From Bacillota bacterium (lineage in GTDB: Bacteria > Bacillota > Dethiobacteria > Dethiobacterales > Dethiobacteraceae): DNA of 64,000 nt. A program made the translations under genes and the position numbers. The notes beneath the pieces are model-generated. The model searched no databases. It saw only the letters and a list, made by a program, of their open reading frames with translations, and was not told the origin of the DNA. Below, one piece after another: positions 55,111 to 64,000 of this stretch (positions are counted from its first letter, which is position 1; every line of letters begins with the position of its first letter). The stretch lies in assembly GCA_018725565.1 (NCBI GenBank), contig QLUR01000004.1:1-64000 (forward strand), written 5' to 3'.

Positions 55111-55480
55111 TTCTTCCCGCAGCGCAGCGCTCGCTTACGGCGGACACAAAGACCGCGCCAGTGCCGCCATGACGCTGGCGGCGCTGTACGGGGCATGGGG
55201 AGCGGGATAAGGCTGGGGAGTATTTCAACAGAACGCGGTACCGGGAGCAGGACAGCGTCAAGGTATATCAGGTATTTATGCGCGTCAGGACACAGACGGC
55301 CTTCAGCGGTTATTTTTTGAAACTTTTTAAAAATGGCAGGATTCTGTTTTTTATTGCCGAAGTAAACATCACAGTATTATATTAACAATTACACTAGCAA
55401 GCTGCAAATGCAAGCATATTTTGGCATTTCCGCTTTAACTGTACATGCCGAACTGGTGAAAATTAAGCTGTGGGGGTGAT
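55111..55480. other. Non-coding stretch upstream of the first SLH esterase
   Basis: No convincing gene. It contains an inverted repeat AGTGCCGCCA/TGGCGGCGCT (about 55160-55186), possibly a terminator for the GerMN gene without a T-run, then an open segment reading AGEYFNRTRYREQDSVKV that may be a gene scrap. From about 55310 it is AT-rich, with GGCAGGATT at 55335-55343 embedded in T-runs. That block is repeated, with about 70 percent match by eye, upstream of the second SLH esterase. Confidence 0.5.
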
Positions 55481-55570
55481 ATGAAAGGAAACTTTCATGG
55501 GGCCGCAAGAGCCGGGCAAAGCGGCATCCTCGCATTATGCTTCGGGATTACAGGAAGTATATGTAAGTAA
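55481..55570 (+). other. Leader segment: hairpin and 29-codon ORF before the first SLH esterase
   Basis: GGGGGTGAT is followed by an ATG opening a 29-codon frame (MKGNFHGAARAGQSG start, ending ICK). The same bases form a perfect stem ATGAAAG-GAAA-CTTTCAT with a GNRA loop (55481-55498), followed by GCCGC/GCGGC. Either a leader peptide or a structured 5' UTR. Confidence 0.4.
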
Positions 55571-55586
55571 ATGGGGAGGACAAGTC

Positions 55587-57263
55587 ATGAATCTTCTGAA
55601 AAGATGCATCAGCGTTTTTGCGGTTATGCTGGCAGTTGCTTTAGTGTGGGTCAATAGTGCCGAAGGAACACAGCCCCTGCGGACAAGTTCACTCGAGCAT
55701 GGTAATCGCGTGCGTACTTTTAGCTATTACGTACCCACCGGGCATGACATCCGAACAGAGGCGCCTCTTGTTATCTCCCTGCATGGGTTAGGCAGCAGTG
55801 GAGCGGGGCAGGCAGTGCTAACCGGGGCCGCGGCAGTTGCGGAACAAAATGGGTTCATTGTCGCTTTCCCCAACTGTTTTCCGCTGACGGGAACGCATCC
55901 GAATCTGCCAGCCCTGCCGGGTGCCAACCTGCAGTGGAATATCGGCATTGATATGTCTTTGCAGTACAGAGCCGGTGTTGACGATGTCGGCTTTATTTCA
56001 GAGTTGATTGATTATTTTGCAGAAAAATATAATATCGACCTGACCCGCGTTTACGTCAAGGGGATGTCAAATGGCGCAATGCTGGCTTATCGATTGGCCA
56101 TTGAACTCTCGGACAGGATTGCCGCGGTAGCGGGGGTTACCGCGCCAATGACAGTAAACTTTGCAGAGGCGAAGCCCCAAAGGCCGGTCTCCGTAATCAT
56201 CATGATGGGAGACCAGGATCCGGTAGTCCCATACGCCGGGGGCAGAGTCTTTCTGCACACTGAGGCGACAGCCGCCTTTTGGGCGGCTGCAAACGGCATC
56301 GCCACGGTTCCGCAGTCAGTATATTTGCCGCTGACTGCGGCAGGTGACCCCACCCTTATTCGCCGCACTTCTTACACCGGAGGCCTGGGTGGCGCCGAAG
56401 TAATATTGTACACAATAATAGGCGGCGGTCATACCTGGCCCGATGGGCCGCAATATGCGCCAATCGCTGCGATTGGCCGCGTCTCAAGGCATATCAATGG
56501 CAGCAGGGTAATTTGGGAGCATTTCGCAGAACATTCTCTCGGCAGGCGGGCAGCTATTATGGTTGAAGCTGCTGAAGCGGCGCCTTTCGCCACCCAGGAA
56601 GCAATCAGGACTGCGCGGGCGCGGCATAAAGCCGCACTGGCGGCGGTAGAGGACCTGCCTGACGGAGAAGGTAAAAAAGCCCTGATTGCCAGGCTGCGTG
56701 CCGTTGAAACCAGATTCCTGCCGGCATTGGCAGACATCGCCGACCACTGGGGCAGAAGTTCCATCAAAATGCTGGCCGGGAAAGGCATTGTCAGCGGCTA
56801 TCCCGATGGCAAATTCAGGCCCGAGGCCGGTATCACCCGGGCTGAGTTTGTTGCCATGCTGACCCGTGCCCTGGAGCTCGCCGCAAAGCCTGAAACGGCG
56901 GCCAGATTCAAGGACGCCGCCGGATTTGGCTGGGCCAAAGGTGCTATTGGTGCCGCGGTAGACGCCGGTCTTGTCGCCGGAATGCCTGATGGTAAATTTA
57001 CCCCGGCACGTCAAATAACCAGGGCAGAGATTGCTGCTATCCTGGCGCGTGTGGTAGAACGTCGCTTAGTGCCGGTCCCCACGGTTAAGGGGGTTGAATT
57101 TGCAGATGCGGGAGTCATTCCTGCCTGGGCTGCGGCTGCAGTCAGAAAGGCCAATACCGCCGGGTTGGTGCGCGGCTTCCCGGATGGTACCTTCCGGCCT
57201 GGCAGAAGCGTTACCCGGGCGGAGACAGCAGCTATGCTGCACCGTCTGGTAGCGGAAAGGTAA
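55587..57263 (+). CDS. Secreted SLH-anchored PHB-depolymerase-like esterase
   Basis: A 558-residue exported protein. Signal peptide about 1-26; alpha/beta-hydrolase of the LpqC/PHB-depolymerase type about 40-315, with LVISLHGLGSSG, nucleophile S161 in GMSNGA, acid D211 in GDQDPVVPY and H282 in GGGHTWPD; a helical linker; three SLH repeats at about 392-558 (LADIADHWGRSSIKMLAGKG, then TRAEF/TRAEI/TRAET). SLH repeats bind pyruvylated wall polymers, so the enzyme sits on the cell surface. Likely cleaves ester bonds in polyesters or feruloyl-type substrates. The frame is open upstream; the ATG at 55587 follows GGGGAGGAC and starts the signal peptide. Confidence 0.88.
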   Translation: MNLLKRCISVFAVMLAVALVWVNSAEGTQPLRTSSLEHGNRVRTFSYYVPTGHDIRTEAPLVISLHGLGSSGAGQAVLTGAAAVAEQNGFIVAFPNCFPLTGTHPNLPALPGANLQWNIGIDMSLQYRAGVDDVGFISELIDYFAEKYNIDLTRVYVKGMSNGAMLAYRLAIELSDRIAAVAGVTAPMTVNFAEAKPQRPVSVIIMMGDQDPVVPYAGGRVFLHTEATAAFWAAANGIATVPQSVYLPLTAAGDPTLIRRTSYTGGLGGAEVILYTIIGGGHTWPDGPQYAPIAAIGRVSRHINGSRVIWEHFAEHSLGRRAAIMVEAAEAAPFATQEAIRTARARHKAALAAVEDLPDGEGKKALIARLRAVETRFLPALADIADHWGRSSIKMLAGKGIVSGYPDGKFRPEAGITRAEFVAMLTRALELAAKPETAARFKDAAGFGWAKGAIGAAVDAGLVAGMPDGKFTPARQITRAEIAAILARVVERRLVPVPTVKGVEFADAGVIPAWAAAAVRKANTAGLVRGFPDGTFRPGRSVTRAETAAMLHRLVAER

Positions 57264-58259: not shown

Positions 58260-59031
58260 TTGAATACGAAAAGATTTCAAGATAAAGTCGTACTGGTCAC
58301 CGGCGGCAATTCCGGAATCGGAAAGGCCACGGCGTTGTCCTTCGGGCGAGAAGGGGCTAAAGTCATCATCGCCGCACGCCGCGAAAAAGAAGGCGCCGAA
58401 GTAGTGGATGAGATTAAAAGACAAGGCGGTGAAGCCTTGTTTGTGCAAACAGATCTGAGGACCGGCAGCGAAATCGACAGGCTGTTTGCAGCCGTTAAAG
58501 AGAAGTACGGAACGCTCAACTGCGCTTTCAATAACGCCGGTGTCTGGCCGGAAATGAAACTGACCGCCGACTACACCCTTGAAGAATTCGACGAGGTCAT
58601 GAACATTAACGTGAAAGCCGTCTGGCTTTGCATGAAACACGAAATCGCCCTGATGACAGAAGCGGGCGGCGGAGCCATCGTCAATTGTTCATCTGTCGCA
58701 GGGATGGGGCGGCCGGGAGGAAACGGCCCTCTACACCGCCAGCAAGCATGCCGTAATCGGGCTTACCCGTGCGGCAGCGATTGAATTCGGTCGAAAGAAG
58801 ATCCGCATCAACGCGGTGTGCCCTGGCTTCACTGAAACACCGATGCTGGAGCGCCAGTTGGCGGATTGCGGAGAAGCGTGAGAAAAACTAATGTTCCAGG
58901 GCATTCCGCTGGGGCGCTATGGAAAACCGGAGGAAATTGCCAGTAACGTCCTTTTCTTGTGTTCAGATGCCGCGTCTTATATCACCGCAAAAAGTATTGT
59001 GATAAGCGGCGGTCAGGGCATTCGTTCATAA
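58260..59031 (+). pseudogene. Decayed tandem SDR copy with frameshift and stop
   Basis: The first 150 codons encode a good SDR N-terminus (VTGGNSGIGKATALSF, NNAGVWPEM, NCSSVAGMG). Near 58710 the frame shifts by one base; the rest ([70 protein letters not shown]) continues in another frame up to TAA at 59029-59031. That second frame is also broken by TGA at 58879-58881, where a local pair of indels appears to hide AEKREK. The start is TTG behind GAGGAG. Similar in layout to the preceding SDR, so a tandem duplicate gone to decay; sequencing error could explain single indels but less easily three. Confidence 0.82.
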
Positions 59032-59317
59032 AAATAGCCTGCTGGATTGTATCAACCGCCCTTGAAAAAAGCGAAGCGCATGAAAAAGCAACCCTAACGC
59101 CGGAGGTCCGGCGTTAATTTATTTCTAAAAATATTTTTGAACACTTTGAATATTTTGGCAGGATTTTTTTTGCAGAATGTGACAAATGTTATGATTATCA
59201 TTATTACCATCTTTAGCTAATTTTCATGTCAGAATCTTTGAAAATTTTGTACTGCATAAATCTTCGGTCAAATCACGTGGCCCAGCAAATCTTTTTTTAA
59301 AACAAGGGGGTGAAGTC
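59032..59317. other. AT-rich non-coding region before the second SLH esterase
   Basis: No gene seen. A perfect 10-bp inverted repeat TAACGCCGGA/TCCGGCGTTA at 59095-59116 with ATTTATTT after it may end the SDR transcript. GGCAGGATT at 59157-59165, within T-rich sequence (TTTTTGAACACTTTGAATA before it), repeats the block at 55335 upstream of the first SLH esterase. Confidence 0.55.
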
Positions 59318-59443
59318 GTGACATCAGGGTATCCCGGCAGCTGTGGTTGTTTCTCCGGGCCTTATGACGGGATCCCAAAGGCGTCAGGTGTTAAGCCGAA
59401 AATCAGAAATTTAAGGAGGTTGACAAAGGTTGCCTGTTTTTAA
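59318..59443 (+). other. Possible 41-codon leader ORF overlapping the second SLH esterase
   Basis: A GTG 5-6 bases after AAGGGGGTG opens a frame (TSGYPGSCGCFSGPYDG) that ends with TAA at 59441-59443, 14 bases inside the next gene in another frame. Overlap suggests coupling. The segment could also be a structured leader: CCCGG/CCGGG arms are seen. Function unknown. Confidence 0.35.
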
Positions 59444-62363
59444 GATCTGGCATAAGCTTAGCGTAAAAAAATCAGTTTCTTGCCTGCTTATTTTACTGAT
59501 GCTTTTGAGCACGTTGCCGACAGGGGCCTGGGCGAGTGAGTCAACGCCGGTCAGTGCCACCATTTCCCTGCCGACAGCGCAGTATAACCTCGCTGCTCCG
59601 GGCGATGTAAGCACGACCATCACCTGGAACGATGCGAGCGTCGTTGCGTCTGTTTATCTGGACATATACGGAACACTTACGTTGGGTACTCACTTTGCGG
59701 TCAGCGAGGCCGTATACGTAAGCGAGGCCGTATACACGTCAGAGCTGACCATATTGAAAGGCTTCTTTACAGAACTTGGTCCGGCGGTAACGAAAGATGC
59801 TGTGTTGCCCTTCACCATCAACTTCAATGCAGGCGCTCCTGCCACCTTTACGGTGACGGTGATTGATACCCCTGTGTATATCACCGAGGTAACACCGGTG
59901 GAAGAGGTCAGCGTGCCAAACGGAACTACCCTCGTAAATGCCATCGCCGCCTTGCCTGCGACAACCACCATTGCGTTAAGTGACGGCAGCTCGATGGAGG
60001 TCGACTTGCAGTGGTCGATACTCGATTATTTCCCGGAAGGCACAGGACCAAATTATGCCATCGGTGTTTTTGAGTTACCGGAAGGGGTCCTACAGCCGGA
60101 TCCGGCGATTGCGTTAGAAGTGCGCACCTTTGTGCGAGTTCTGCCCGGGGCGACTATAACCTTGGCTGATTTCGACCAGCCTGGGGAGTATGTCAGCGGC
60201 ACAATGGTCGTCGGTGGATTTACCCGCACCTACCATTATTACCTGCCCAGCGAACTCGACCCGGCTGTACCGCTACCCGTAGTGTTCAACCTGCATGGGG
60301 GCGGCTCCCACGGGTTGGGTCAGCTGTACTACTCCGGGTTCGATGTCGTTGCGGAAAGGGAAGGCTTTATCGTTGTCAGCCCGGATTATGGCTCAGGGCG
60401 CGCCGGCGCTGCTACCTGGTCATTTACCGTGCCACAGGACATAGCCTTCTTCGATGCGCTCATCGACCACTTGGTGACAACTTACAACATCGATACCAGA
60501 AGGATTTATGCCGCAGGCATATCGATGGGCGGCGGCCGCGCCATTGAGATGGCGTATAGACTATCCGACAGAGTAGCTGCCATTGCCTCAGTCAGCAACA
60601 GAGCAACCGGCCTTTTGGTCGGAACGCCACCTGTGCCCAGAGTGCTGCCCAGACCGATGACTATGGTCTTTTTGGGCGGCACTAAAGAGCGCCTTGGCTA
60701 CGTACCACCCGCCTGGTTAGATTTTGCTGCGCCAATTCTGAGCAATGTGCAAACTTCATTGCTACCGCAGCTCTTTTCCGGTTCCATCCCCGAACCTGAT
60801 ATAAAGCAGTGGTCAGCTACTGAAGACGACCCGACCAGTATCACCAGATACCATTGGAGCGGAGGAGCCTTTGGCACCGAGGTGTTCGTTTACTATATCG
60901 AGGAAGGCGGGCATACCTGGCCGGGCAAGTACCAATATGCCAGCGTCATTTCTGTTGGCCGGACCTCGATGCATATTGATGCAACCGAACACATCTGGAA
61001 GCATCTCAGCCTGCACAAAATACCTTTTGCAACCAACGCCGATCTCTCAGCGCTGACCATAAGCCAGGGAGTTCTTACGCCGGCTTTCAATGCTGCGGTG
61101 ACCGCCTACACAGTTAACGTCGCCAACGCTGTGTCCAACATAGACATCACAGCCACAGCGGCCCATACCGGCGCCACGATGACTATCAGCAGCACTGCTC
61201 AGACCAGCGGTACCGCCAGGACGGTTCCGCTGGTTGTGGGAGCCAACACGATTACCATCGTTGTTACGGCCGAGGACGGGACGACACTGAAGACCTACAC
61301 CGTCACCGTGAACCGGGCGGCGGCTCCGGTTCCCGTTCCCGTAGACCCAGCACCTGTACCAGCACCTGCACCTGTACCAACACCAGTACCTGTGCCCACT
61401 CCAACTCCTCCGACTGTGGTTGAACGACCCATCGTTGCCGGGCAGCCCACGGAAGTTATGCTGGAAGGCGCAGCGAGAATTACCGTAGCAGCAGGAGCCA
61501 TTACCGGAGCAGCACCCAGAATTACCGCACAAGTTTTGCCCGAAGCAGCGGCTGCGCCGTTAATGGCGGCAGCCGCTGGAGCTGGCCTCAGCGCGGCAAG
61601 TGAAGTCGTGGTGCTTACGCTTGCCGGCGGTGTGTTTACGGCGCCGGTGCAGCTGACGCTGAACTTTGACCCGGCTAAGGTTGCTGCGGGACAGGTGCCA
61701 AGTGTATTCGTTTATAATGAGCGGACCGGGCGCTGGATTTTCCTTGGCGGCCAGGTCGGAGTCGCTACAATTACGGTTACAGTTGACAGGTTTTCCAGGT
61801 TTGCTGTGTTTGCCACGAGACCCTTACCGGCGCTGGCTGACATTGCCGACCACTGGGGCAGGGGTTCCATCAGGACGCTGGCCGGTATGGGTATTGTCAG
61901 CGGCTTTCCTGATGGCAGATTTAATCCTAATGCCGGAGTGACCAGAACGGAATTTGTCAGTATGCTGACGCGGGCTCTGGAACTTGAGGCCAAGCCGCGA
62001 GCGGCTGCCAGGTTTACGGATGCAGACGGCTGGGCTCAAGGCGCCATCGGCGCTGCTGCGGAAGCAGGCCTAGTTGCCGGCTACGCTGACAACACATTCG
62101 GCGGTGCCCGCCGGATTACCAGAGCGGAGATGGCGGTAATTCTGCAGCGTGTGATTCGCAAAGGCCTTGTGCCGGTTGCCGTGACTGCGGAGGCGGACTT
62201 TGCCGATGCGAGAGCTTTCCCGGCCTGGGCCGCGGATGGCATCAGAGTAGCCAGCAGAGCGGGCTTAGTACGCGGCTTCCAGGATCGGACGTTCCGTCCG
62301 GGAAGCACGACTACCAGGGCGGAAGCGGCAGCTATGCTGTACCGCTTGGTAGCGGAAAGGTAA
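59430..62363 (+). CDS. Large secreted SLH-anchored esterase-like protein with Ig-type modules
   Basis: A 977-residue exported protein. Signal peptide about 1-36; X2-like Ig module about 43-150; esterase domain about 250-525 with VVFNLHGGGSHG, S365 in GISMGG and H495 in GGHTWPG; cadherin-like beta-sandwich about 537-629 (LSALTISQGVLTPAF...YTVTVNR); Pro/Val linker 632-663; a ZU5-like beta domain about 670-795; three SLH repeats 800-977. The Asp loop seen in the smaller paralog (GDQDP) reads LGGTKERLG here, so catalysis is uncertain. The start is TTG behind AGGAGG. Likely a cell-surface polyester or carbohydrate-ester hydrolase or binding protein. Confidence 0.87.
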   Translation: MPVFKIWHKLSVKKSVSCLLILLMLLSTLPTGAWASESTPVSATISLPTAQYNLAAPGDVSTTITWNDASVVASVYLDIYGTLTLGTHFAVSEAVYVSEAVYTSELTILKGFFTELGPAVTKDAVLPFTINFNAGAPATFTVTVIDTPVYITEVTPVEEVSVPNGTTLVNAIAALPATTTIALSDGSSMEVDLQWSILDYFPEGTGPNYAIGVFELPEGVLQPDPAIALEVRTFVRVLPGATITLADFDQPGEYVSGTMVVGGFTRTYHYYLPSELDPAVPLPVVFNLHGGGSHGLGQLYYSGFDVVAEREGFIVVSPDYGSGRAGAATWSFTVPQDIAFFDALIDHLVTTYNIDTRRIYAAGISMGGGRAIEMAYRLSDRVAAIASVSNRATGLLVGTPPVPRVLPRPMTMVFLGGTKERLGYVPPAWLDFAAPILSNVQTSLLPQLFSGSIPEPDIKQWSATEDDPTSITRYHWSGGAFGTEVFVYYIEEGGHTWPGKYQYASVISVGRTSMHIDATEHIWKHLSLHKIPFATNADLSALTISQGVLTPAFNAAVTAYTVNVANAVSNIDITATAAHTGATMTISSTAQTSGTARTVPLVVGANTITIVVTAEDGTTLKTYTVTVNRAAAPVPVPVDPAPVPAPAPVPTPVPVPTPTPPTVVERPIVAGQPTEVMLEGAARITVAAGAITGAAPRITAQVLPEAAAAPLMAAAAGAGLSAASEVVVLTLAGGVFTAPVQLTLNFDPAKVAAGQVPSVFVYNERTGRWIFLGGQVGVATITVTVDRFSRFAVFATRPLPALADIADHWGRGSIRTLAGMGIVSGFPDGRFNPNAGVTRTEFVSMLTRALELEAKPRAAARFTDADGWAQGAIGAAAEAGLVAGYADNTFGGARRITRAEMAVILQRVIRKGLVPVAVTAEADFADARAFPAWAADGIRVASRAGLVRGFQDRTFRPGSTTTRAEAAAMLYRLVAER
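59700..59735 (+). repeat. 18-bp tandem duplication within the X2-like module
   Basis: Two 18-base units ending AGCGAGGCCGTATAC lie side by side with one mismatch, adding VSEAVY twice in frame at residues 91-102. Confidence 0.8.
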
Positions 62364-62503: not shown

Positions 62504-62728
62504 TTGAGACAATTCAAAATTGTGGTTGAAAAACACACTGATGGTTATGTGGCTTACCCATTGGGGGTTAAGGGAGCTATAGTTGGTCAGGGAGATTCTT
62601 ACGAGGAAGCGCTGACGGATGTAAGATCAGCAATCCGATTCCATATTGAGACCTTTGGCGCCGATGTACTTAATATGGAGCCGCCTATTCTTGAGGCGTT
62701 TGTTGCGGAAGCGGGAGTCGAAATCTGA
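62504..62728 (+). CDS. hicB: HicB-like antitoxin
   Basis: A 74-residue protein with the HicB partial RNase H-like fold: FKIVVEKHTDGYVAYPLGVKGAIVGQGDSYEEAL and a helix DVRSAIRFHIETF. It lacks an added DNA-binding domain, as in short HicB proteins. Start TTG behind AAGGAGGTGAGC. Here hicB precedes hicA and the stop overlaps the hicA ATG by one base. Confidence 0.85.
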   Translation: MRQFKIVVEKHTDGYVAYPLGVKGAIVGQGDSYEEALTDVRSAIRFHIETFGADVLNMEPPILEAFVAEAGVEI

Positions 62729-62967
62729 TGGCCAGATTTCCTGTTGACGCTCCAAAGGGAAAAGTAATTAAAGCCTTAGAGCTTCTCGGGTTTCGTATCC
62801 TTCGGGAGAAAGAGCATATTTCTATGGCACGGAAAAACCTGGATGGAAACCAAACACCATTGACCATGCCTAATCATCCAACAATCAAAGCTTCGACCCT
62901 AAGGACGATTTGCACCCAGGTTGGTATTTCCCGGGATGAGTTCCTAGGTGCTTATAACAAGACATGA
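62728..62967 (+). CDS. hicA: HicA-like mRNA interferase toxin
   Basis: A 79-residue protein of the HicA double-stranded RNA-binding-like fold: KVIKALELLGFRILREKEHISMARK followed by LTMPNHPTIKASTLRTICTQVGIS. The catalytic His of HicA is usually in GS/SHxxx; here the EHISM His near residue 31 is the candidate. It cleaves mRNA when free of HicB. This cassette separates the intact SLH gene from the SLH remnant. Confidence 0.87.
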   Translation: MARFPVDAPKGKVIKALELLGFRILREKEHISMARKNLDGNQTPLTMPNHPTIKASTLRTICTQVGISRDEFLGAYNKT

Positions 62968-63008: not shown

Positions 63009-63251
63009 AAGTTTGCCGTGTTTGCCATTTCGCCCCTGCCGGAGCTCGCTGACATTGCCGACCACTGGGGCAGGGGTTCCATCAGGACGCTGGCCGGTAT
63101 GGGTATTGTCAGCGGCTTTCCTGATGGCAGATTTAATCCTAATGCCGCAGTGACCAGAGCGGAATTTGTCAGTATGCTGATGCGGGCTCTGGGCCTTGAG
63201 GCCAAGCCGGAAGCGGCAGCTATGCTGCACCGTCTGGTAGCGGAAAGGTAA
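63009..63251 (+). pseudogene. Mosaic remnant of an SLH-esterase gene
   Basis: KFAVFAISPLPELADIADHWG and the whole first SLH repeat follow 61800-61997 of the large esterase gene almost base for base. Then the sequence jumps, in frame, to the last 13 codons. The skipped part corresponds to 61998-62321 (324 bp, 108 codons). From GCAGCTATGCTGC onward the tail matches the smaller esterase gene (to about 57269) better than the larger one. No start or signal peptide is present, so it is not expected to make a working protein. Confidence 0.85.
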
Positions 63252-63303: not shown

Positions 63304-63434
63304 TTCCGGGAGAACACGGGGGAGAAGGGATAAGTGCCCTCATAGGCTCTGATGGCTTTGAGCGGGAGGGCTGACAGGATTTGGGCAAAGATTGTCGAAC
63401 TATAGGTTTAAAGCAAGTATTGGAGCAAAAATTG

Positions 63435-64000
63435 ATGGACGACCGTCAGGCTGAAGCTGAAAAAGAGCTGCTTGCCCGTGCCCGGCATTGCCCGGAGGCC
63501 TTCGGCCGGCTTTACAACCAAAACTATCCGGCGATACTCAACTATTGTATACGCCGGACGGGCGATGCGGAGCTTGCTCAGGATATCACCGCCGAAACCT
63601 TTGTCAAAGCGCTGAAAAATATCGGGAGCTTCGAATGGCGGGGCAGTTCCTTTTCAGCCTGGCTCTACCGCGTCGCCGGGAATGAGCTTGCCAGCTATTT
63701 TCGCAAAGGAACCTACAAGGCGGTTTCCTTGGAATATTTGCGGGAGAGCCAGGGGTTCGAGCCGGCAGCGTCTCACGAGCTGGAAGCCGAACTGATTGCG
63801 GCGCAGGAAGAGCTGGCGCGTCACCAGGAATTCCTGGCCTGCCGCCGACAAATCAGCCGGCTGCCCATTAAATACCAGGAGATAATCGCCTTGCGTTTTT
63901 TTGCCGGAAAGAGCCATAAAGAGATAGCCGGGATTCTGGGCAAACCGGAAGGGACCGTTAAGTCCCTTTTGCACCGCGGTTTGGAAAGATTACGGAAGCA
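63435..64000 (+). CDS. Sigma-70 family RNA polymerase sigma factor (ECF-like), partial
   Basis: The first 188 codons of a sigma factor that continues past the window. Region 2 is seen at about 20-85 (FGRLYNQNYPAILNYCIRRT, LAQDITAETFVKALKN, FSAWLYRVAGNELASYFRK) and region 4 at about 135-185 (LPIKYQEIIALRFFAGKSHKEIAGILGK, EGTVKSLLHRGLERLRK). TGGAG is 9 bases before the ATG. ECF factors usually pair with an anti-sigma gene just downstream, outside this window. Its position after SLH genes suggests envelope or S-layer control, which is only inference. Confidence 0.88.
   Translation, partial: MDDRQAEAEKELLARARHCPEAFGRLYNQNYPAILNYCIRRTGDAELAQDITAETFVKALKNIGSFEWRGSSFSAWLYRVAGNELASYFRKGTYKAVSLEYLRESQGFEPAASHELEAELIAAQEELARHQEFLACRRQISRLPIKYQEIIALRFFAGKSHKEIAGILGKPEGTVKSLLHRGLERLRK

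Follow-up and report, generated by a model that had tools for sequence, protein, structure and literature searches.

Putative sigma-H-type promoters and a Shine-Dalgarno-like leader site upstream of two SLH esterase genes

Two genes for SLH-anchored esterases are found in the stretch of 64,000 nucleotides that was analysed here (the window), and their upstream regions look alike although their coding regions differ. Does this likeness reflect a shared control, and if so, by which factor, or is it a leftover of common descent?

The two genes and their upstream regions

The genes, and the terminator in front of the second one, are located as follows.

55587..57263, + strand: SLH esterase gene 1, coding for a PHA-depolymerase-like esterase with 3 SLH (Pfam PF02230/PF10503/PF00395)
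59095..59116, + strand: terminator hairpin ending the upstream gene pair, immediately 5' of the block (terminator scan of both strands)
59430..62363, + strand: SLH esterase gene 2, coding for a signal peptide, a CBM_X2-like domain, an esterase, a cadherin-like domain and 3 SLH (Pfam)

The probable start codons are ATG 55587 in gene 1 and TTG 59430 in gene 2, and each has its own Shine-Dalgarno (SD) sequence (GGGGAGG at 55573-55579 and AAGGAGG at 59413-59419, respectively). Against NF050058 gene 1 scored 146.9, slightly under the cut-off of 150. At 58260-58784, a second short-chain dehydrogenase gene has an apparent frameshift near 58708 and then continues in another frame.

An earlier note on this DNA had described a T-rich block with GGCAGGATT before both genes, a GGGGGTG about 140-150 bases after it and the true start about 250-270 bases past the block. 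This layout was confirmed. GGCAGGATT is present at 55335 (gene 1) and 59157 (gene 2), GGGGGTG follows at 55472 and 59306, which is 137 and 149 bases further 3', and the start codons are 252 and 273 bases away from GGCAGGATT. In the window GGCAGGATT was observed 6 times, with 0.8 expected. Genome-wide scans, which were done as pattern searches, gave 12 hits for GGCAGGATTTTT, several of them inside genes, and 0 for the reversed pattern.

When both upstream regions were aligned directly, as the note had proposed, the similarity stood above that of shuffled sequences, but it was weak and the difference marginal (2 of 500 shuffles reached an equal score), and the best local match was limited to a 40-base T-rich block. 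Clearer matches were obtained with a relative, the MAG named Clostridium sp. CROMO_A_128 (G017), for the following two stretches.

55310..55334, + strand: A/T-rich stretch (ATTTTTTGAAA...) before the -35 box of gene 1, with 67.5% A+T in the 40 bases 5' of the box
59117..59156, + strand: A/T-rich, UP-element-like stretch before the -35 box of gene 2, with 87.5% A+T

The first stretch resembles copy a of the block in G017 over 58 bases (0 of 200 shuffles were as good) and the second aligns with copy b (0 of 300). The second copy of the SLH promoter block in G017 (L084 7241-7300, G017:C69) is about 480 bases upstream of the first, and the stretch between the two resembles a tRNA-linked insertion.

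A sigma-H promoter class in the family

Spore-formers start transcription from the sigma-H (Spo0H) promoter once they cease to grow, in the transition phase. Its consensus consists of a -35 box RNAGGAWWW, a spacer of 11-12 and a -10 box RNNGAATWW (boxes: PMC8510167). The genome encodes sigma-H, with 370.7 bits to TIGR02859 and thus above the cut-off, and Spo0A is also encoded. We searched 20 genomes of the family with GCAGGAWWT-N(0-24)-GNNGAATW, a pattern that allows any spacer from 0 to 24, and found 256 sites versus 7 for the reversed pattern. Among the sites listed, the spacer was 11-12 in 105 of 150, whereas 12 would be expected if the distribution were flat. Since this peak matches the published boxes, GGCAGGAWWT is, by sequence comparison, the -35 half of the sigma-H promoter in this family. 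A Spo0A box was considered as the main explanation, with TGNCGAA-like sites found at gene 1 and at the sigma factor gene at 63435, but it was rejected since the 11-12 peak fits sigma-H.

The genes that follow such sites were identified from reading their protein sequences. They are minC, asp23, an mreB/mbl paralogue, cvpA, alr and fapA in this genome, and dnaG, hpf, a parB-like gene, dnaX, gap and fhs in the relatives. The earlier note had argued that its proposal would fail if no other genes carried the block, and the block is indeed present family-wide. It appears to be a widely used sigma-H-type element and not a control specific to SLH genes, and most other SLH genes of the family are without it. 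A scan of a broad genome collection added just one further locus.

In Clostridioides difficile, minC and mreB likewise have SigH promoters, and cwp27, which codes for a surface protein, depends on sigma-H too (PMC7438776). The family sites resemble the sigma-H promoters of Bacillus and Clostridioides (spoVG, spo0A, minC, cwp27) in their -35 AGGA(A/T), the spacer of 11-12, the -10 GAA(T), the A/T-rich upstream region and in targets that include minC, mreB, dnaG, hpf and parB-like genes. They differ by a strong GGC ahead of AGGA, by having SLH-anchored esterases as targets and, for gene 2, by a spacer of 5.

For scoring, a family matrix was derived from the pattern-selected sites, with p values taken against shuffled upstream regions, and an independent matrix was built from 30 SigH sites of C. 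difficile (PMC7438776), all with a spacer of 11 or 12 as aligned here. The family-wide matrix GGCAGGAWWT-N11/12-GNNGAATWW may make growth-phase regulons readable from uncultured genomes.

Promoters and kinship of the SLH genes

The following elements were found at the two blocks.

55336..55364, + strand: putative sigma-H-type promoter of gene 1, GCAGGATTC - 11 nt - GCCGAAGTA (family matrix)
59157..59180, + strand: GGCAGGATTTTTTTTGCAGAATGT of gene 2, with a putative sigma-H -35 box, a poly-T spacer and a GCAGAAT box (spacer 5 versus 12 in relatives)
59187..59195, + strand: putative extended -10 TGTTATGAT, aligned with TGTTATAAT of G017 and of a second relative, G003 (alignment of the relatives' loci)

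The gene 1 promoter reads GCAGGATTC-TGTTTTTTATT-GCCGAAGTA with a spacer of exactly 11 and scored 18.4 with the family matrix (p ~0.001). Its -35 box has one mismatch to RNAGGAWWW, in the last W, and its -10 box at N11 has a T to G change, as in C. difficile ssuA. Gene 2 reads GCAGGATTT-TTTTT-GCAGAATGT, with a -35 box that matches RNAGGAWWW and the GCAGAAT box just 5 bases from it. As candidates for RNNGAATWW, GCAGAATGT at N5 and TGTGACAAA at N11 were found in gene 2; at canonical spacing, the scan with the family matrix detected no good -10 box and the score was 13.4 (p ~0.016). Scored by the C. difficile matrix, the sites of genes 1 and 2 ranked only 21 and 89 among 127,936 starts, so the assignment to sigma-H leans on the family comparison. 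Plain sigma-70 promoters were rejected: the scans detected none at the block of gene 2 (+ strand), and at gene 1 a 9/12 match with a spacer of 18.

In the two relatives, the orthologous SLH genes are preceded by predicted near-consensus sigma-H promoters. The G017 gene has GCAGGATAT-N12-GCAGAATAT followed by TGTTATAAT and received the top score among SLH genes (25.8, family matrix), and the G003 promoter is nearly identical to it. G017 agrees with RNNGAATWW at N12 and G003 does so too, with one mismatch in its -35 box. The extended -10 TGTTATGAT of gene 2 is 33 bases from GGCAGGA, a distance that is equal in the relatives. In gene 2, where the poly-T spacer seems too short, this conserved element probably takes over. 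The comparison suggests that starts for sigma-H and sigma-A overlap in the lineage of gene 2 and that the former is weakened in gene 2 itself. The poly-T spacer is 5 long in gene 2, 8 in G017 copy a, 11 in gene 1 and 12 in G017 copy b and in G003. It is a long shot that the tract between the boxes is a slippage switch, with a sporulation-type promoter undergoing phase variation; if true, slippage in the spacer would turn the sigma-H expression of SLH-anchored proteins on or off.

The earlier note had held that the coding regions are too diverged for a simple duplication and that the shared control therefore seemed selected. The esterase domains of gene 1 and gene 2 indeed share 32% of their residues, but their SLH ends are 69% identical in DNA (last 547 bases) and 65% in protein. 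Gene 2 and the G017 gene are 56% identical in the N-terminal part and 70% in the C-terminal part, with 52% over the first 146 residues (signal peptide region) and 81% for the SLH end, and the G017 gene combines a matching promoter type, leader site, signal peptide and SLH anchor with a different middle. Copying and rearrangement have evidently shaped the locus, where the ends were kept and the middles exchanged. The upstream similarity thus need not be convergent, but what was kept are the functional boxes. The shared control was supported by our results, but selection need not be invoked against duplication, since the SLH ends are clearly related and G017 has the equivalent around another middle.

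At 55146-55293, just 5' of the gene 1 block, we found what is left of the decayed 3' part of a TPR/O-antigen-ligase-like gene (150 bases with 77% identity to G003, L088), and its intact counterpart adjoins the SLH gene on the 3' side in G017. This remnant fits a plain inheritance, where the SLH genes, including those of the relatives, arose from one ancestral gene that was duplicated and exchanged domains, and where what remains alike upstream is just unselected. Common ancestry explains much, as the SLH ends (and, for G017 and gene 2, the signal peptides) are common and the middles are different. However, the promoter boxes and the SD-like site were conserved while the leader between them diverged, and the boxes agree with a promoter class that occurs across the genome and has its own spacing. 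An unselected remnant is unlikely, though not remote.

The full layout of block and leader site was found in 3 of the 28 SLH genes with a readable upstream region, namely gene 1, gene 2 and the G017 gene. The SLH gene of G003, which is outside the 28 and was found separately because it is truncated, has the full layout as well, and the orthologues in G008 and G015 have the GGCAGGA box alone, with a high score. The layout is hence a feature of one SLH subfamily; a general SLH control was rejected, as most SLH genes of the family are without it. The remnant of a third SLH gene, with one SLH repeat, is located at 63018-63251 (85% protein identity to SLH gene 2), and a HicB-like/HicA toxin-antitoxin pair (HicA by Pfam) is inserted between gene 2 and this remnant at 62504-62967.

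The leader site and the neighbouring sigma gene

The earlier note had also placed a short ORF after GGGGGTG, and both ORFs were found next to the leader sites.

55472..55479, + strand: SD-like leader site GGGGGTGA of gene 1, aligning with GGAGGTGA / GGGGGTGA of three further SLH leaders
55481..55570, + strand: short ORF MKGNFHGAARAGQSGILALCFGITGSICK of gene 1, starting with ATG 55481, 29 codons, not conserved (sequence comparison)
59306..59313, + strand: SD-like leader site GGGGGTGA of gene 2 (four-leader alignment, rarity)
59318..59443, + strand: short ORF of gene 2, starting with GTG 59318, 41 codons, not conserved, overlapping the gene 2 start in another frame

The leaders of gene 1, gene 2, G017 and G003 were aligned at the SD-like site, which has its fullest form in TTAA-CTGTGGRGGTGAAGT. 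On the two strands of the window together (128 kb), GGRGGTGA was counted 8 times, which corresponds to 0.014 expected per leader of 230 bases, and each of the leaders of genes 1 and 2 contains one, 115-124 bases 5' of the main start. It is a strong SD sequence in the 5' leader but does not serve the main start, which has its own. The short ORFs of both genes could be translated from the site. The conserved element is the site itself and not the ORFs downstream of it, which in the four leaders have 29, 41 or 14 codons or are fused to the main gene and show no common sequence. The leaders had no credible match in Rfam and their folding gave z-scores of -2.0, +1.3, +1.5 and +0.2 with no consistent structure, and on these grounds a riboswitch or a structured leader was rejected. 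A c-di-GMP-I riboswitch had been considered because, at another place in the genome, the block adjoins one before flgB, but there is no match to it in the SLH leaders.

In the cry3A mRNA, the Stab-SD is a 30S docking site that stabilises the mRNA (PMC4113751). GGRGGTGA is most likely a Stab-SD-like, mRNA-stabilising docking site for ribosomes. Unlike the Stab-SD of cry3A, which is near the 5' end, the SLH site is about 100 bases inside the predicted leader, and for two of the genes a start codon follows it at a usable distance. A conserved SD-like site lacking a conserved ORF is a candidate for a leader-mediated mRNA stabilisation of S-layer-type genes.

Alternatively, a leader peptide or a tandem in-frame start might be translated from GGRGGTGA and be coupled to the main start. 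The Brevibacillus brevis mwp gene has tandem starts, the short ORF of gene 2 has a good SD spacing, and in-frame extensions exist (ATG 55497 in gene 1 and 28 extra residues in G017). However, the peptides of 29, 41 and 14 residues and the fused one are unrelated, their frames differ, and the distance between the beginning of the SD and the first start is 21 bases in both G003 and G017. This translation control is rather improbable.

We favour, with a probability of roughly two in three, that the shared block is a sigma-H -35 half with its A/T-rich upstream region and that GGRGGTGA is an SD-like docking site in a leader of about 220 bases. The motif, the spacing peak, the conservation in two relatives and the rarity of the leader site were observed directly, and we infer the use of sigma-H, the transcription starts, the mRNA stabilisation and the timing. 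The sigma-H RNA polymerase would start gene 1 from GCAGGATTC-N11-GCCGAAGTA. For the lineage of gene 2, a sigma-H box with the poly-T spacer and GCAGAAT after it would overlap with an extended -10 for the main sigma factor; the relatives would retain both, and gene 2 with its shortened spacer probably depends on the second of these. The leader site would bind 30S subunits and most likely shield the mRNA from 5' decay rather than provide a specific peptide. As an outcome, the cell-surface esterases would be made as growth slows. An uncultured lineage of spore-formers would then have surface-anchored, PHA-depolymerase-like esterases as part of its transition-phase (sigma-H) programme. The match between the upstream regions is real, yet of a known kind.

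The eag gene of Bacillus anthracis reportedly uses sigma-H (Mignot 2002). The stationary-phase switch from sap to eag is similar in that SLH-type surface genes are under growth-phase control (PMC7759979), which is predicted here. In B. anthracis the main S-layer proteins are switched, whereas enzymes are encoded here and the role of a repressor is not known.

The earlier note had named the sigma factor encoded at 63435 (ATG) as a possible reader of the block, but this factor is of the ECF type and its own gene follows a block-like site.

63373..63402, + strand: putative sigma-H-type promoter GACAGGATTTGGGCAAAGATTGTCGAACTA before the ECF-type sigma gene (top site of the window by the family matrix and rank 3 by that of C. 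difficile)

Having this promoter, the ECF-type sigma gene is more likely a co-regulated fellow target than the source of the cognate factor. That it acts as a local surface-protein regulator reading both promoters is very improbable: its gene follows SLH gene 2 at a distance of about 1 kb and has a promoter that resembles the block, but the ECF class is known for reading other motifs, and the motif stands family-wide before housekeeping and transition-phase genes with the sigma-H spacing. The gene after the ECF sigma gene (L095 2023-3402; region 63373-64000) encodes a protein with one possible membrane segment, which is perhaps the anti-sigma factor of this ECF factor.

Elsewhere in the genome, at L012 1501-1657 (G000:C91:45220), a poly-T sigma-H-type block with GGCAGGATT and a spacer of 11 is located directly before a c-di-GMP-I riboswitch (Rfam 89.3 bits), which precedes the flgB-flgC operon. 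A control of flagella by both sigma-H and c-di-GMP is predicted for this operon.
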